Origin: an uncultured Opitutia bacterium
GTDB taxonomy: Bacteria; Verrucomicrobiota; Verrucomicrobiia; Opitutales; Puniceicoccaceae
Direction: 5' to 3'
Length of the DNA stretch: 42,379 nucleotides
Assembly (NCBI GenBank): GCA_913056175.1
Contig: CAJXLM010000020.1
Location: 1-42,379, forward strand
Shown: positions 1 through 42,379 of the stretch, one piece after another
How the letters are laid out: the number at the start of each line of letters is the position of its first letter
Position numbering within the stretch: the first letter of the stretch is position 1
Position numbers and translations under genes: made by a program
The notes under the pieces: model-generated
Told to the model about the DNA's origin: nothing
What the model saw: the letters and a program-made list of their open reading frames with translations, nothing else
Databases searched by the model: none

Positions 1-258
1 GCGTGGTCGGACCGGGCGGCGGAGGAGGCGGTGAGCTGGCTGCTCAACCCGCGGGGCCGGCTCGTCGAGGTCCGGGGCGGCCGGGCTCCGCCCCGCGAGA
101 TCGAGGAGGCGATGGCCCGACGGGTGATCGCCGGCTCCGAGGCCTACGTGCGCCGTCACCGCGCCCGCTGGGCGGGCGCACCGCGGGCGGTCCCCGTCGA
201 GGAGGTCGACATCCCCCTCTGGGGCGCCCAGCCCTGGCGGCGGACGATGCTGAAGTAA
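1..258 (+). CDS. C-terminal end of an unidentified protein (5' end outside window)
   Basis: An open frame runs in from the left edge without a start and ends at TAA 256-258, giving the last 85 residues. The piece is rich in Arg, Ala and Trp and holds no motif that I can name with confidence. The segment reading VIAGSEAYV followed by an Arg-rich stretch faintly recalls the C-terminal ends of REP-associated tyrosine transposases, but this is a weak impression only. The gene lies directly upstream of the tandem repeat array and is separated from it by about 60 bases of short C/G repeats. The frame and composition look coding; the function is unknown. Confidence 0.55.
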   Translation, partial: AWSDRAAEEAVSWLLNPRGRLVEVRGGRAPPREIEEAMARRVIAGSEAYVRRHRARWAGAPRAVPVEEVDIPLWGAQPWRRTMLK

Positions 259-319
259 CCGCTTCGGGGTCCCGGGGCTCCCGGGGCTTTCGATGGTTCC
301 GGGAGTTCGGGGGCTTCGG

Positions 320-1600
320 GGTGTCTTGGGGGACCCGTGGCGTTGCGGGCTCGTGGGCAGGGGAGTGGGCGGGGGCCCGCGGCATGGGAGCGGGTTCAGA
401 ATTTTGCGGGGAATTCAACCATGCTGCGCCATGCGGCGCTCCCCTGCTGTGCCTCATCGCACATCCATGCTGCGCCTTGCGGCGCCTCCCTGCCCTTCGA
501 TCCGGAGAAGGTGACGGTGGTGCGGGGCGGCGGGATATCCGGAGTGGTTTTGGCAGCCGGGGCGTTGCCGGCTCGCGAGCAGGGGAACGCCTGCGGCGTA
601 GCACGGGAGTGGGCGGAGCCCACGGCAGGGGATGGGTTCGTAATTTTTCGGGGAATCAGGCCATGCTGCGCCTTGCGGCTCTCTTCTGCAGGCCCTGCGG
701 TCTATCTCTGCTGCCCCGTGTAGCGGTCCCATGCTGTGCCTTCGACACATCCGGGCCGCACTTTTGGCACCTCCCTGCTCGTCGCTCGGAGTGGTGGCGC
801 GGGGCGGCGGCGGGTCCGGCGTGTTTTTGGGGAACCGGAGCGTCACGGGCTCGCGGGCAGGGGAACGCCTGCGGCGTGGCAGGGGAGTGGGCGGGGCCCG
901 CGGCAGGGGATGGGTTCGTAATTTTTCGGGGAATTAGGCCATGCTGCGCCTTGCGGCTCTCTTCTGCAGGGCCTGCGGCCTATCTCTGCTGCCCCGTGTA
1001 GCGGTCCCATGCAGTGCCTTTGACACATCCGGGCCGCACTTTCGGCACCTCCCTGCTCGTCGCTCGGACTGGTGGCGCGGGGCGGCGGCGGGTCCGGCGT
1101 GTTTTTGGGGAATCGGAGCCTCACGGGCTCGCGGGCAGGGGAACGCCTGTGGCGTGGCAGGGGAGTGGGCGGGGCCCACGGCAGGGAGTGAGTTCGGGTT
1201 TTTTCGGGGAACTGAGCCATGCCTCGCCTTTCAGCGCTTTTCTGCAGGGCCTGCGGCCTATCTCTGCTGCCCCCTGCAGTGGTCCCATGCTGTGCCTTCG
1301 GCACATCCGGGCCGCGCCTTCCGGCTCTTCTTTGTTGGGCCGTGGGCATATCCATATCGCGCCCTGCCCGCTTCCACGCGCTTGGGCGCGGAGCGCCGGG
1401 GGGGGTTCGGGGGTGTCTCGAGGGTCCGGGCTTTGCGGGCTCGCGGGCAGGGGGACGCTTGCGGCGTGGTAGGGGATTAGGCAGGGCGACGGCAGAGAGT
1501 TGGCGAGGGTCGGCGGCGGGGGGTGGGTTCGGGATCTTCTGGGGAATGGAGCCCATGCTGCGGCTTCGGGGGCTGGCCTGTTTTGGTTTCGGACCCTCCA
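320..1600. repeat. Tandem array of degenerate ~278-bp repeats
   Basis: The anchor GGGAGTGGGC recurs at 361, 605, 883 and 1161, and degenerated at 1473, giving spacings of 244, 278, 278 and 312 bases. Units 605-882 and 883-1160 differ at about a dozen positions by eye, so they are roughly 96 percent identical. Outer units are more diverged. Each unit also holds an internal sub-repeat beginning ATGCTGCGCCTTGCGGC or a variant (near 420, 467, 662, 731, 940, 1010, 1219, 1288 and 1555). The common period of 278 is not a multiple of three, so the array is not a repeated protein domain. It is not CRISPR, because whole units repeat without unique spacers. Its role is unknown. Confidence 0.9.
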
Positions 1601-2216
1601 GGCCGTGACCTGGGGCGCTTTCCTACGCTCCGGCAAGACCTTTCCAAGGGCTCGATGGGTCTCCGCCACTTGTGGGTCCATCCCGTTGCGTACGGGTGGC
1701 TTCCCGGTCCTTGGGCGATCGATTTTTCCTTTCGCTACCCTACTCCCGTTCGGGCTTCCGCGGGCCTTCGGGGGGATGGCGGGAGTCGGTGTGGGATCGG
1801 ATTGTTTGGTTCCATGGATCGCCTTCCCGGTTCCCTCGACGGGTCCAATTTTCAGTCCCCGGCAAAGCGGCGTAGGGTTGCCCGGTTCCCCCGACGGGGT
1901 TCGGTCTCTCGGAGCTTCTTGGGAGGGAGAAAGAGGAGAAGAGCAGGGTGGCTCCGGAGAAGGGGACGGTTATGGGCCCCGGTTTACCGGGAAAATTCCC
2001 GGCAGCGTGTCGGTCTCCCGCCGTCCTTTCCAATCGATGTCGCGGTCTGTCCCCGTACCCCGCAGAACACGTCGTCCGTTCGATAGGAAAACGAACTCCA
2101 ACCCACTCACCCCCCCTCCATGCAGCGATGTCCGTCCCCGGCAGGAGACGATTGCACCTCTTTGGAGGACCTCGGGTCGAGCCTCCCGCAGCCGTTGGGG
2201 AGGGGGGCGGAGGGGG
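1601..2216. other. Gene-free stretch with small hairpins and a short direct repeat
   Basis: No open frame here has a recognisable product. An 18-base direct repeat (CCCGGTTCCCTCGACGGG at 1826-1843, and the same with one change at 1881-1898) is visible. Two mutually exclusive hairpins overlap at 1978-2002: CCCGGT/ACCGGG with a TT loop (1978-1991) and CCGGGAA/TTCCCGG with an AA loop (1987-2002). These could belong to the 3' end of the minus-strand transcript that ends at 2217, but no clear U-tract follows. No tRNA, tmRNA or RNase P RNA core was recognised by eye. Confidence 0.5.
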
Positions 2217-24096: not shown

Positions 24097-25554
24097 TCAA
24101 CTCTGTCCCTGCCCGAGCTGGAAGGCGGGCTTGCCGTCGAAGTAGTAAAGGCCCTCGGTCTTGATGAACTCGAGACCCGTGCGGTTGATGCGGTCGAGGA
24201 GGGCCACGATCTCCCCGTGGGGCAGGGCCTCGCCCGCCTCGGGATTGTCCATGGTGAAACGGCAGCGCCAGTGGTCGCAGAGGAGGGTTTGCGCAAAGCC
24301 CTGCGGCCAGACGGCCATCCCCCGGCTGGAGATCATGCGCAGCTGCAGGTTGTCCGCGTTCGCCTGCTGGAGGAGCTCGGCGATCTCGGCGGTGGATCCG
24401 CGAAATTCGCAAAAGACATCCACCCCCACCAGCTGCCGGACGACCACCGGCCGCTCGTAGGGAGGGTTGGTCTTCACCTGGGCCTCCTCCTTGTTGTAGT
24501 GGGCGGCCGGCAGAGTGTCCGGGAGCTGGCCGACGCGTTCGCCGACGGCTTGGGCGAACTCGGCGGTGCCCACCTTCTCGCGGCTCTTGCCCTCCTCGTA
24601 GACATCGTAGGTGTGGAGACCGTCCTCGATCGTCTTCAGCCAGGCGTTGTGGGTGCGCTCGGCGGCCTCGACCTGCCCGATGTGCACGAGCATCTGGATC
24701 GCGCCCATGAGCAGACCGGAGGGGTTGGCCAGGTTCTGGCCGGCCCGGCGGGGGGCAGAACCGTGGATCGCCTCGAACATGGCGTGCTCCGGCCCGATGT
24801 TGGCGGAGCCGGCCAGGCCGACGGAACCGGCCACCTGGGCGGCCACATCACTGAGGATGTCCCCGTAGAGGTTCGGCATCACCACGACATCAAAGCTCTG
24901 CGGCGTGTCCGCCAGCTTGGCCGCCCCGATGTCAACAATCCAGTGCTCGTTCTCGAGGTCGGGATACTCGACGGCGATCTCCTCGAAGACCTTGTGGAAG
25001 AGGCCGTCGGTGATCTTCATGATGTTGTCCTTGGTGAAGCAGGTCACCTTGCGGCGGCCGTGGGCCTTCGCGTACTCGAAGGCGTAGCGGACGATCCGCT
25101 CGCAGCCCTGGCGGCTGATCAGCTTGAGGCACTGGGTGACGTCCACCGTCTGCTGGTGCTCGATGCCGGCGTAGAGATCCTCCTCGTTCTCGCGGATCAC
25201 CACGACATCCATGCCGGGGTGCTTGGTGTGGATGAAGGGATGGTAGGCCACGCAGGGGCGAACATTCGCATAGAGCCCGAGGGCTTTCCGCGTGGTCACG
25301 TTCATGCTCTTGAAACCGCCTCCCTGGGGGGTGGTGATGGGGGCCTTCAGGAAGACCTTCGTCCGCAGGATGGAGTCGAAAGCTCCCGCCGACATCCCGC
25401 TGGTGTTCCCCTTGAGGTATTCCTGCTCCCCGATGGAGATCTCCTCGATCTCCAGCTGGGCGCCGGCCTCCCGCAGGATATGCAGGGTCGCGTCCATGAT
25501 TTCGGGGCCGATTCCATCGCCCCGGGCTACGGTGATGCTCTTCGCTTCGCTCAT
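24097..25554 (-). CDS. icd: Isocitrate dehydrogenase (NADP-type)
   Basis: The 485-residue protein is an isocitrate/isopropylmalate dehydrogenase-family enzyme: GDGIGPEIMD at the start, substrate-side NTSGMSAGAFDSILRTK, the KSMNVTTRKALGLYANVRP block, NEEDLYAGIEH, and the metal/cofactor motif NLYGDILSDVAA. After about residue 350 it has an extra C-terminal domain, so it belongs to the long subgroup like those of Thermus and Rickettsia rather than the E. coli form. It catalyses oxidative decarboxylation of isocitrate in the TCA cycle. The cofactor (NADP rather than NAD) is assumed from the family and not proven by eye. A TTTACA/TAGGGC pair 17 bases apart lies about 73 bases upstream. Confidence 0.92.
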   Translation of the reverse strand: MSEAKSITVARGDGIGPEIMDATLHILREAGAQLEIEEISIGEQEYLKGNTSGMSAGAFDSILRTKVFLKAPITTPQGGGFKSMNVTTRKALGLYANVRPCVAYHPFIHTKHPGMDVVVIRENEEDLYAGIEHQQTVDVTQCLKLISRQGCERIVRYAFEYAKAHGRRKVTCFTKDNIMKITDGLFHKVFEEIAVEYPDLENEHWIVDIGAAKLADTPQSFDVVVMPNLYGDILSDVAAQVAGSVGLAGSANIGPEHAMFEAIHGSAPRRAGQNLANPSGLLMGAIQMLVHIGQVEAAERTHNAWLKTIEDGLHTYDVYEEGKSREKVGTAEFAQAVGERVGQLPDTLPAAHYNKEEAQVKTNPPYERPVVVRQLVGVDVFCEFRGSTAEIAELLQQANADNLQLRMISSRGMAVWPQGFAQTLLCDHWRCRFTMDNPEAGEALPHGEIVALLDRINRTGLEFIKTEGLYYFDGKPAFQLGQGQS

Positions 25555-41433: not shown

Positions 41434-42275
41434 GCCCGCAAAACCGCCAGACAACCCCCGCCTTATCCCGCCGACAAGCACAATCCCCGCCCGGCTCCCC
41501 ATCCCCGGCCCACCAAGGCCGCTCCGGCGGAAAACGGGGGCTCCCTCTTCCTTCCCGGCAGGAACGGATGGCCCCCAAAGTGGATCCAAGCGGGACCTAT
41601 TCCGGCTTCCACCGGTACCGGTCTCCCGGAATCAAACCACCCCTCCCCTCCGGAGAGGGAGGGAAACCCCGTCACCGGATTCCGGCCAACCGCGGGGCGA
41701 AAGAGATCGCCCAACCGGCCGCTCCTCTGCGCTACGCCCACGACACCACCCCTCCCGAACCTGTCTCCCCTCCCACGCCGGCCGGGGTAACCCTTCCCTT
41801 CGGGTCTCCGTTCCACCCGCCCTGACAGACGAACCGAGCCCGGCCCAAGACCCCCAGTACCCCACGGACATGCAGACGCGGGCCACCCCATCCACCAATA
41901 CCGGCACTCCCAAAATCGCACCCCCACACTCTCCCTCCACCAACCCCCCGCCGCCACCACTCACAAAACCCTCCCGCGCGGAACAATCCCCCAACCCACC
42001 CCCTTCATGCCCCCCCCAAAAAAACTGCACCCTACCCCTCCTCTCCCAACAAAAGCCCCCACCTCTCCCCCCCAACACATCCCCCTCCCCGCTCTCCCCA
42101 CTCCACCCCCTCCGCACACCCCACACAACAACCAACACCTTTCCCACCCCACCGGTTCGCGAAAATCGCCACTCCCTCCCCCTCCTCCCCTGCAACTCAT
42201 TGGTTTCTGCAGGTCTGTCCCCCGTATTCAGCTTGCAAAGAAGGAAGTTTCGTTTTGAATGGAGGTACGATGCGG
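41434..42275. other. Long gene-free gap with strong C/G strand asymmetry
   Basis: No gene is recognisable in these 842 bases. From about 41830 the plus strand is rich in C and A and almost free of G: I count 74 C and 5 G in 42001-42120. The minus strand is then full of G-runs and could form G-quadruplexes. The open frames on both strands are low-complexity (Pro-rich or Gly-rich) and are composition artefacts. The aspS promoter should lie at the left part. A small inverted pair (CCTGCA at 42189-42194 and TGCAGG at 42208-42213) sits near the right end. Confidence 0.6.
42261..42266 (+). promoter_or_regulatory. Ribosome-binding site deciding the start of the right-edge gene
   Basis: GGAGGT lies nine bases above ATG 42276 and three bases above ATG 42270. 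The spacing favours 42276. It is one of the few perfect Shine-Dalgarno sequences in the window. Confidence 0.6.
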
Positions 42276-42379
42276 ATGGCTCGTTACAAGGTGGGGGGGA
42301 GTGGGGTGTACTACGTGCGGAGTGAGCTGGTGGACCGGTTGCCGGCGTTGGGGGAGGAGGACTGCCGTGTGCTGTTGGC
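42276..42379 (+). CDS. N-terminus of a probable REP-associated tyrosine (RAYT-type) transposase
   Basis: Only 34 codons are visible before the right edge. They read MARYKVGGSGVYYVRSELVDR and continue with LPALGEEDC. The pattern MAR-x-K/R-V, a Tyr-Tyr/His at about 13-14, then SR/SE-L-V-D, is like the start of RAYT (TnpA-REP, Y1 transposase) proteins, which mobilise REP palindromes. The catalytic His-x-His motif and Tyr would lie beyond the edge. Codons are G-rich (GTG, GGG, TTG, CGG), unlike the C-ending codons of neighbours, consistent with foreign origin. Assignment rests on short similarity only. Confidence 0.45.
   Translation, partial: MARYKVGGSGVYYVRSELVDRLPALGEEDCRVLL

Follow-up and report, generated by a model that had tools for sequence, protein, structure and literature searches.

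REP-associated tyrosine transposases (RAYTs) described so far keep the HUH motif and the catalytic tyrosine, and their tag is GT[AG]G (PMC2817692, PMC8266576). The catalytic residues were kept in all of the RAYTs aligned in one of these studies (PMC2817692). In Pseudomonas fluorescens SBW25, every RAYT differs from the others and is present once, and most REPINs are scattered through the genome as singlets, clusters being few (PMC3116915). TnpA-Y1 subclasses 2.1 and 2.3 were reported without flanking REPs, and proteins without HUH or Y were set aside as probably non-functional (PMC6006769).

In this study, we analyzed a window of 42,379 nucleotides from an uncultured Opitutia bacterium and show, for a gene that we call A and its tandem arrays, the linkage, the copy number, the hairpin anatomy, the loss of HUH and the purifying selection on the protein. 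The best explanation, to which we give a probability of about 55%, is that A is a multicopy, non-cutting, hairpin-binding descendant of RAYTs with its own hairpin arrays; the binding and the route of spread are the parts that we infer.

Structure of the array in the window

The window opens with the end of gene A, followed by a tandem array of hairpin units:

1-258, plus strand: last 85 codons of gene A with its stop, sharing 93-100% identity with the 3' ends of 18 further A copies, all of which have an array behind them
317-1644, plus strand: tandem array of REPIN-like hairpin units (family HMM, TRF), beginning 59 nt past the gene A stop
317-528, plus strand: unit 1, diverged and shortened (family HMM)
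541-806, plus strand: unit 2, 93% identical to unit 3 (family HMM)
818-1084, plus strand: unit 3 (family HMM)
1096-1333, plus strand: unit 4, its right half partly repeated at 1311-1395 (family HMM)
1411-1644, plus strand: unit 5, the most diverged, with a ragged 3' end (family HMM)
1143-1179, plus strand: example of a left block, hairpins ACGCC-TGT-GGCGT and GTGGGC-GGG-GCCCAC with GCAGGGGA before each
426-485, plus strand: example of a right block, hairpins GCGCC-ATGC-GGCGC, TGTGC..GCACA and GCGCC-TTGC-GGCGC, with TCCCTGC-type tags after the hairpins that are the left-block tag inverted

A sequence-only reading had placed a tandem array of non-coding repeats of about 278 bp here, and the array was found at that place. 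The anchor GGGAGTGGGC starts at 361, 605, 883 and 1161, with a degenerate copy at about 1473, and Tandem Repeats Finder gave a period of 278 with 2.9 copies at 516-1315 (score 1264, far above chance). Because the first and last anchor intervals are 244 and 312, this period is limited to the array centre and fails at the edges. The identity between 548-825 and 826-1103 was 93%, rather than the 96% estimated for the central units; the next stretch (1126-1315) reached 86%, and the outer units (about 70-80%) were diverged as described. The internal sub-repeat ATGCTGCGCC... also proved real, as a 32-nt motif in 11 copies, mostly about 45 nt apart within units, which corresponds to hairpins with a conserved tag between them.

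The array is not coding, as had been proposed, since units differ in length from array to array (about 205-320 bp) and these lengths are not multiples of three. An Rfam search at the gathering threshold gave no match to the array, indicating that it is not a known RNA family. With regard to the repeated small RNA that had been put forward as an alternative, one window unit was folded as RNA or DNA, and its folding energy was no better than that of shuffled sequence. The remainder of the window's gene A copy falls beyond the contig end, and for its 85-aa fragment the sole Pfam match, RecC_C, was sub-threshold and was rejected.

Distribution of gene A and the arrays

With the window unit as query, the bacterium's own genome (2.61 Mb, 96.5% complete, 84 contigs) gave 130 matches, nearly all of which lie no more than about 2 kb from a contig end. 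Orienting these contig ends showed 28 arrays, and an iterated HMM gave 117 full or partial units; the window array is not a solitary expansion. The unit DNA was absent from the 272 other genomes of the order (0/272), and viral contigs gave no match. For dispersed single units, significant matches lay only in arrays, and the matches elsewhere were 19-38 nt long with E 0.002 or worse. The window's first 257 bases, whole or in part, recur at 93-100% identity upstream of 18 other arrays.

Gene A has about 300 codons and about 26 copies in the genome, and the arrays lie at contig ends because these copies break the assembly. C-terminal pieces were found at 19 contig ends and N-terminal pieces at about 26. 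A full-length A gene was never seen on one contig, and the pieces were matched by homology to the closest full-length paralog, on C19 (72% identical); C29 supplies 165 C-terminal residues (QRFSRWFNRRHRRKGPLWADRFQS...). In all 19 copies with a readable stop codon, an array lies 22-61 nt downstream. Upstream of gene A stands a conserved leader, about 65 nt long, that contains TATAATGACAGGCTTT. Searching for this leader with up to 2 mismatches gave 24 matches in the genome versus 0 for the control, and all 24 lie at the end of a contig, immediately before the start of an A copy. Beyond the leader, the A copies have a C-rich, G-poor tract upstream (mean skew 0.52). We propose that these parts make up a genomic module, in about 26 copies, of the leader TATAATGACAGGCTTT..., a RAYT-derived gene A and a tandem REPIN-like array, of which the window array would be the 3' half.

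It is very improbable that the arrays are an assembly artefact of a short-read metagenome bin. They do stand at contig ends in a genome of 84 contigs, and unit numbers may be wrong, but the breaks fall mostly inside gene A, at differing points, and not in the array; the 28 arrays also differ in sequence and run into different flanks.

Several arrays were observed in other settings. On C36 (L110), an array at about 621-1477 on the minus strand has no gene A copy directly 5' and lies about 0.5 kb upstream of the leader of another A copy. On C39 (L109), a 52%-identical HUH-less paralog (24461-25354) faces a gene A array from the opposite side, so that a single array stands between two convergent RAYT-like genes. 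The edges of three arrays (C9 (L034), 1-250; C27 (L046), contig end; C48 (L030), 1-470) carry a transposase-like fragment, of IS256/Mutator type by eye; the fragment of C9 and C27 (81 aa) had no Pfam hit. This suggests an insertion sequence entering hairpin arrays.

At its right end (42270-42379), the window also holds the N-terminal part of a further RAYT-like gene, of subfamily B, which runs off the contig and matches the C19 paralog at about 53% over 30 residues. Related N-termini are present at about six other contig ends (C13, C22, C25, C26, C34 and C3). Just upstream of gene B, at 41801-42260, the C-over-G strand skew reaches 0.84 (200-nt windows), and the tracts upstream of gene A copies have the same kind of skew.

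Loss of the catalytic centre

Gene A was assigned to its family from its paralogs, by a tree and by weak matches to NCBIfam NF047646 (REP-associated tyrosine transposase) that stay below the cut-off (E 0.003 to 1e-6; 17-28 bits versus a cut-off of 80). Y1_Tnp also stayed below its cut-off, and a PDB search with the paralog profile gave nothing significant. In the tree, the full-length HUH-less paralogs formed one clade (support 100/100) inside HUH-bearing Verrucomicrobiota RAYT-like proteins, one of which scores 64 bits against NF047646.

The HUH position reads TGIQ or RGIQ in all 5 A copies that are long enough, and TGIQ, REVC, REVQ, RELL or REIQ in the paralogs; the distant paralog C6 keeps HFH and has no tyrosine. 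In C29, the sole A copy reaching that position, S stands in place of the catalytic tyrosine (Y...NP). Paralogs have A, S, F or H there, and the tyrosine is replaced in every full-length member of the HUH-less clade. Both HUH and the tyrosine were intact in 110 Verrucomicrobiota relatives (80 from named genomes and 30 from further genomes) and in 27 of 28 more relatives found by scanning 273 genomes of the order, where the one exception has a shortened N-terminus; the sets of 80, 30 and 28 may share some identical genes. Misalignment as the source of the HUH loss was rejected, as conserved residues on either side fix the HUH column in the alignments with the 110 relatives. Protein A would work without cutting by the standard HUH/Tyr chemistry. 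Among the relatives examined in other genomes, none had a comparable run of units downstream, and a few had short or single direct repeats of their own.

A might instead be a still-active transposase with a changed active site, the module being self-mobile and the array hairpins serving as its recognition ends. The presence of about 26 near-identical proteins at dispersed sites under strong purifying selection resembles an element that needs its own protein to spread, and histidines (RMHDIS, NRRH, VRRH) and tyrosines (WYRA, DYRW) are widely conserved among paralogs. We nevertheless regard this as unlikely, since both halves of the HUH/Tyr centre are replaced throughout the clade, the array has a ragged 3' end, no inverted copy of the 5' leader (a terminal inverted repeat) was found at or near array ends, and the module is absent from every other genome searched. 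An IS200/IS605 insertion sequence was rejected on the lost catalytic residues and the ragged 3' end of the array.

RAYT-like genes separate from A were found on C7 and C8. Both keep NHSH and the tyrosine and are candidates that could act in trans. About 1.1-2.0 kb downstream of the HUH-intact RAYT-like gene on C7 (L107) lies a direct repeat of another kind, about 397 nt long with 91% identity. On C55 (L099), a direct repeat of 153 nt with 87% identity lies 454-818 nt past an HUH-less paralog and may represent an array type of its own.

Hairpin anatomy of the unit

The consensus unit given by the iterated family HMM is 294 bp long and starts its hairpin series with 2-3 hairpins that have the 5' tag GGCAGGGGA; after a spacer of 34 nt come at most 5 hairpins that carry this tag inverted. 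On the left side, a 38-nt lead is followed by GGGCAGGGGA[GCGCC-TGC-GGCGC], GGCAGGGGA[GTGGGC-GGG-GCCCAC] and GGCAGGGGA[GCGGGC-GGGG-GCCCGC]. On the right side, a T-rich spacer of about 34 nt is followed by at most 5 hairpins with TTCCCTGCT- and ATCCATGCC-type tags between them. Since these right-block tags are the left tag inverted, the tags face outwards, as in head-to-head REP doublets.

The arrays contained 278 perfect hairpins of at least 5 bp, versus 123 +/- 9 (maximum 149) in dinucleotide shuffles. Conservation was 0.79 in stems versus 0.64 in loops, and 0.80 versus 0.60 at G/C positions alone. In the five hairpins that could be placed without ambiguity, standard pairs made up 89% of 1,892 cells, versus 31-52% when slid by 1-2 columns. 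In a test of covariation across aligned units, a check that the sequence-only reading had put forward, two-sided compensatory cells numbered 43, versus 24.5 on average and at most 36 after shuffling, but the change is concentrated in one pair, the first of hairpin L1 (G-C 39, A-T 26), and the RNAalifold covariation term is small. Because most pairs vary little and the signal is largely one pair, the covariation is supportive, not overwhelming.

By analogy with its RAYT ancestors, which bind REPs, protein A may bind the array hairpins, and its target would be single-stranded DNA or A's own transcript. Against this explanation, the hairpin tags GGCAGGGGA differ from the canonical REP GT[AG]G.

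Selection and probable spread

We compared the C-termini of 19 A copies in 171 pairs, which are not independent. The results showed a pS of 0.166, a pN of 0.0023 and a pN/pS of 0.014, with 28 non-synonymous versus 715 synonymous differences; the N-termini gave a pN/pS of 0.119. The A protein is clearly under strong purifying selection despite the lost centre. Of 21 site pairs, 9 failed the four-gamete test, indicating that A copies recombine.

Mean unit identity was 0.77 within arrays and 0.76 between arrays, and the nearest relative lay in the same array for 11 of 75 near-full units, versus 2.5 expected by shuffling, so that the arrays mostly moved with the adjacent gene, and local slippage is not their general origin. 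First units were more alike across arrays than later units, as expected if arrays moved with the gene. It is therefore suggested that gene and array spread together and that some tandem duplication took place locally, units 2-4 of the window being an example. The recent local expansion first proposed is supported for those units and is not supported for the arrays in general.

That the array is junk DNA expanded locally by slippage, close to a repeated gene by chance, is highly unlikely. Window units 2-4 are indeed closest to one another (93%, 86%), but an array stands beside 19 of 19 A copies, only the 11 of 75 units have their nearest unit in the same array, and the hairpins have been kept.

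In a host role, the hairpins bound by A would be those of chromosomal DNA or of the 3' portion of the A mRNA, with mobility long over and autoregulation, a nucleoid function or a transcription-end function as proposed functions. The synonymous divergence of about 0.17 with almost no amino-acid change suggests copies that have long been apart and are each functional; the arrays, lying directly after the A stop, are probably co-transcribed with it; and sequence is exchanged between copies (9 of 21 site pairs). The need for about 26 copies is hard to see, however, and we consider this role rather doubtful.

If A is a non-cutting, hairpin-binding RAYT descendant, the modules would have spread together with their arrays, probably by an enzyme in trans or by inter-copy recombination, and the arrays would then have diverged through tandem gain and loss. 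A wider proposal, which we hold tentatively and at less than even odds, is that a lineage descended from transposases lost DNA cutting, kept hairpin recognition, gained arrays and multiplied to about 26 modules, through a new route of spread or a host function of the protein-hairpin pair.

Comparison with known systems

The array had been thought to fit no known family, which the analysis did not support: it has the organisation of a REP/REPIN cluster next to a RAYT gene, a kind already known. The clusters in Pseudomonas fluorescens SBW25 likewise consist of inverted REP-type hairpin doublets in tandem adjoining a RAYT gene (PMC3116915); unlike there, the gene here has about 26 copies, a unit has up to eight hairpins, and dispersed copies were not found. 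REP/BIME systems with REP-associated tyrosine transposases likewise have tagged hairpins in alternating orientation by a Y1-related gene (PMC2817692, PMC8266576), whereas in A both catalytic parts are missing and the hairpins carry the tag GGCAGGGGA. The proteins of TnpA-Y1 subclasses 2.1 and 2.3 are long, with about 325 aa in subclass 2.3, and have a YVDLNP-type motif (PMC6006769); the Verrucomicrobiota relatives of A share these traits, which is a resemblance only.

Tagged hairpins occur as inverted pairs, as in REPINs and BIMEs (tag GGCAGGGGA on the left, TTCCCTGCT on the right), and the consensus unit shares the head-to-head layout of REP doublets and is larger. RAYTs have REPs on both sides in inverted orientation; here the hairpin array lies only 3', with the leader and C-rich tract 5'. 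The consensus tag ends in GGGGA and not in the GT[AG]G tetranucleotide of REPINs and BIMEs, and their high-copy dispersal through intergenic space was not found. Because these defining features were tested and are absent, we do not file the system as a member of the RAYT or REPIN family. It is of the RAYT/REPIN kind in organisation, and gene A itself and its copy number were not known before.

Earlier descriptions have RAYTs as single-copy genes (PMC3116915) with their catalytic residues intact (PMC2817692), and the reason for which hosts retain them is an open question. Family A, with about 26 strongly selected copies that are without the cutting residues and always adjoin a hairpin array, may be a natural case in which hairpin binding is uncoupled from cutting, and it offers a direct test of whether binding alone is selected.
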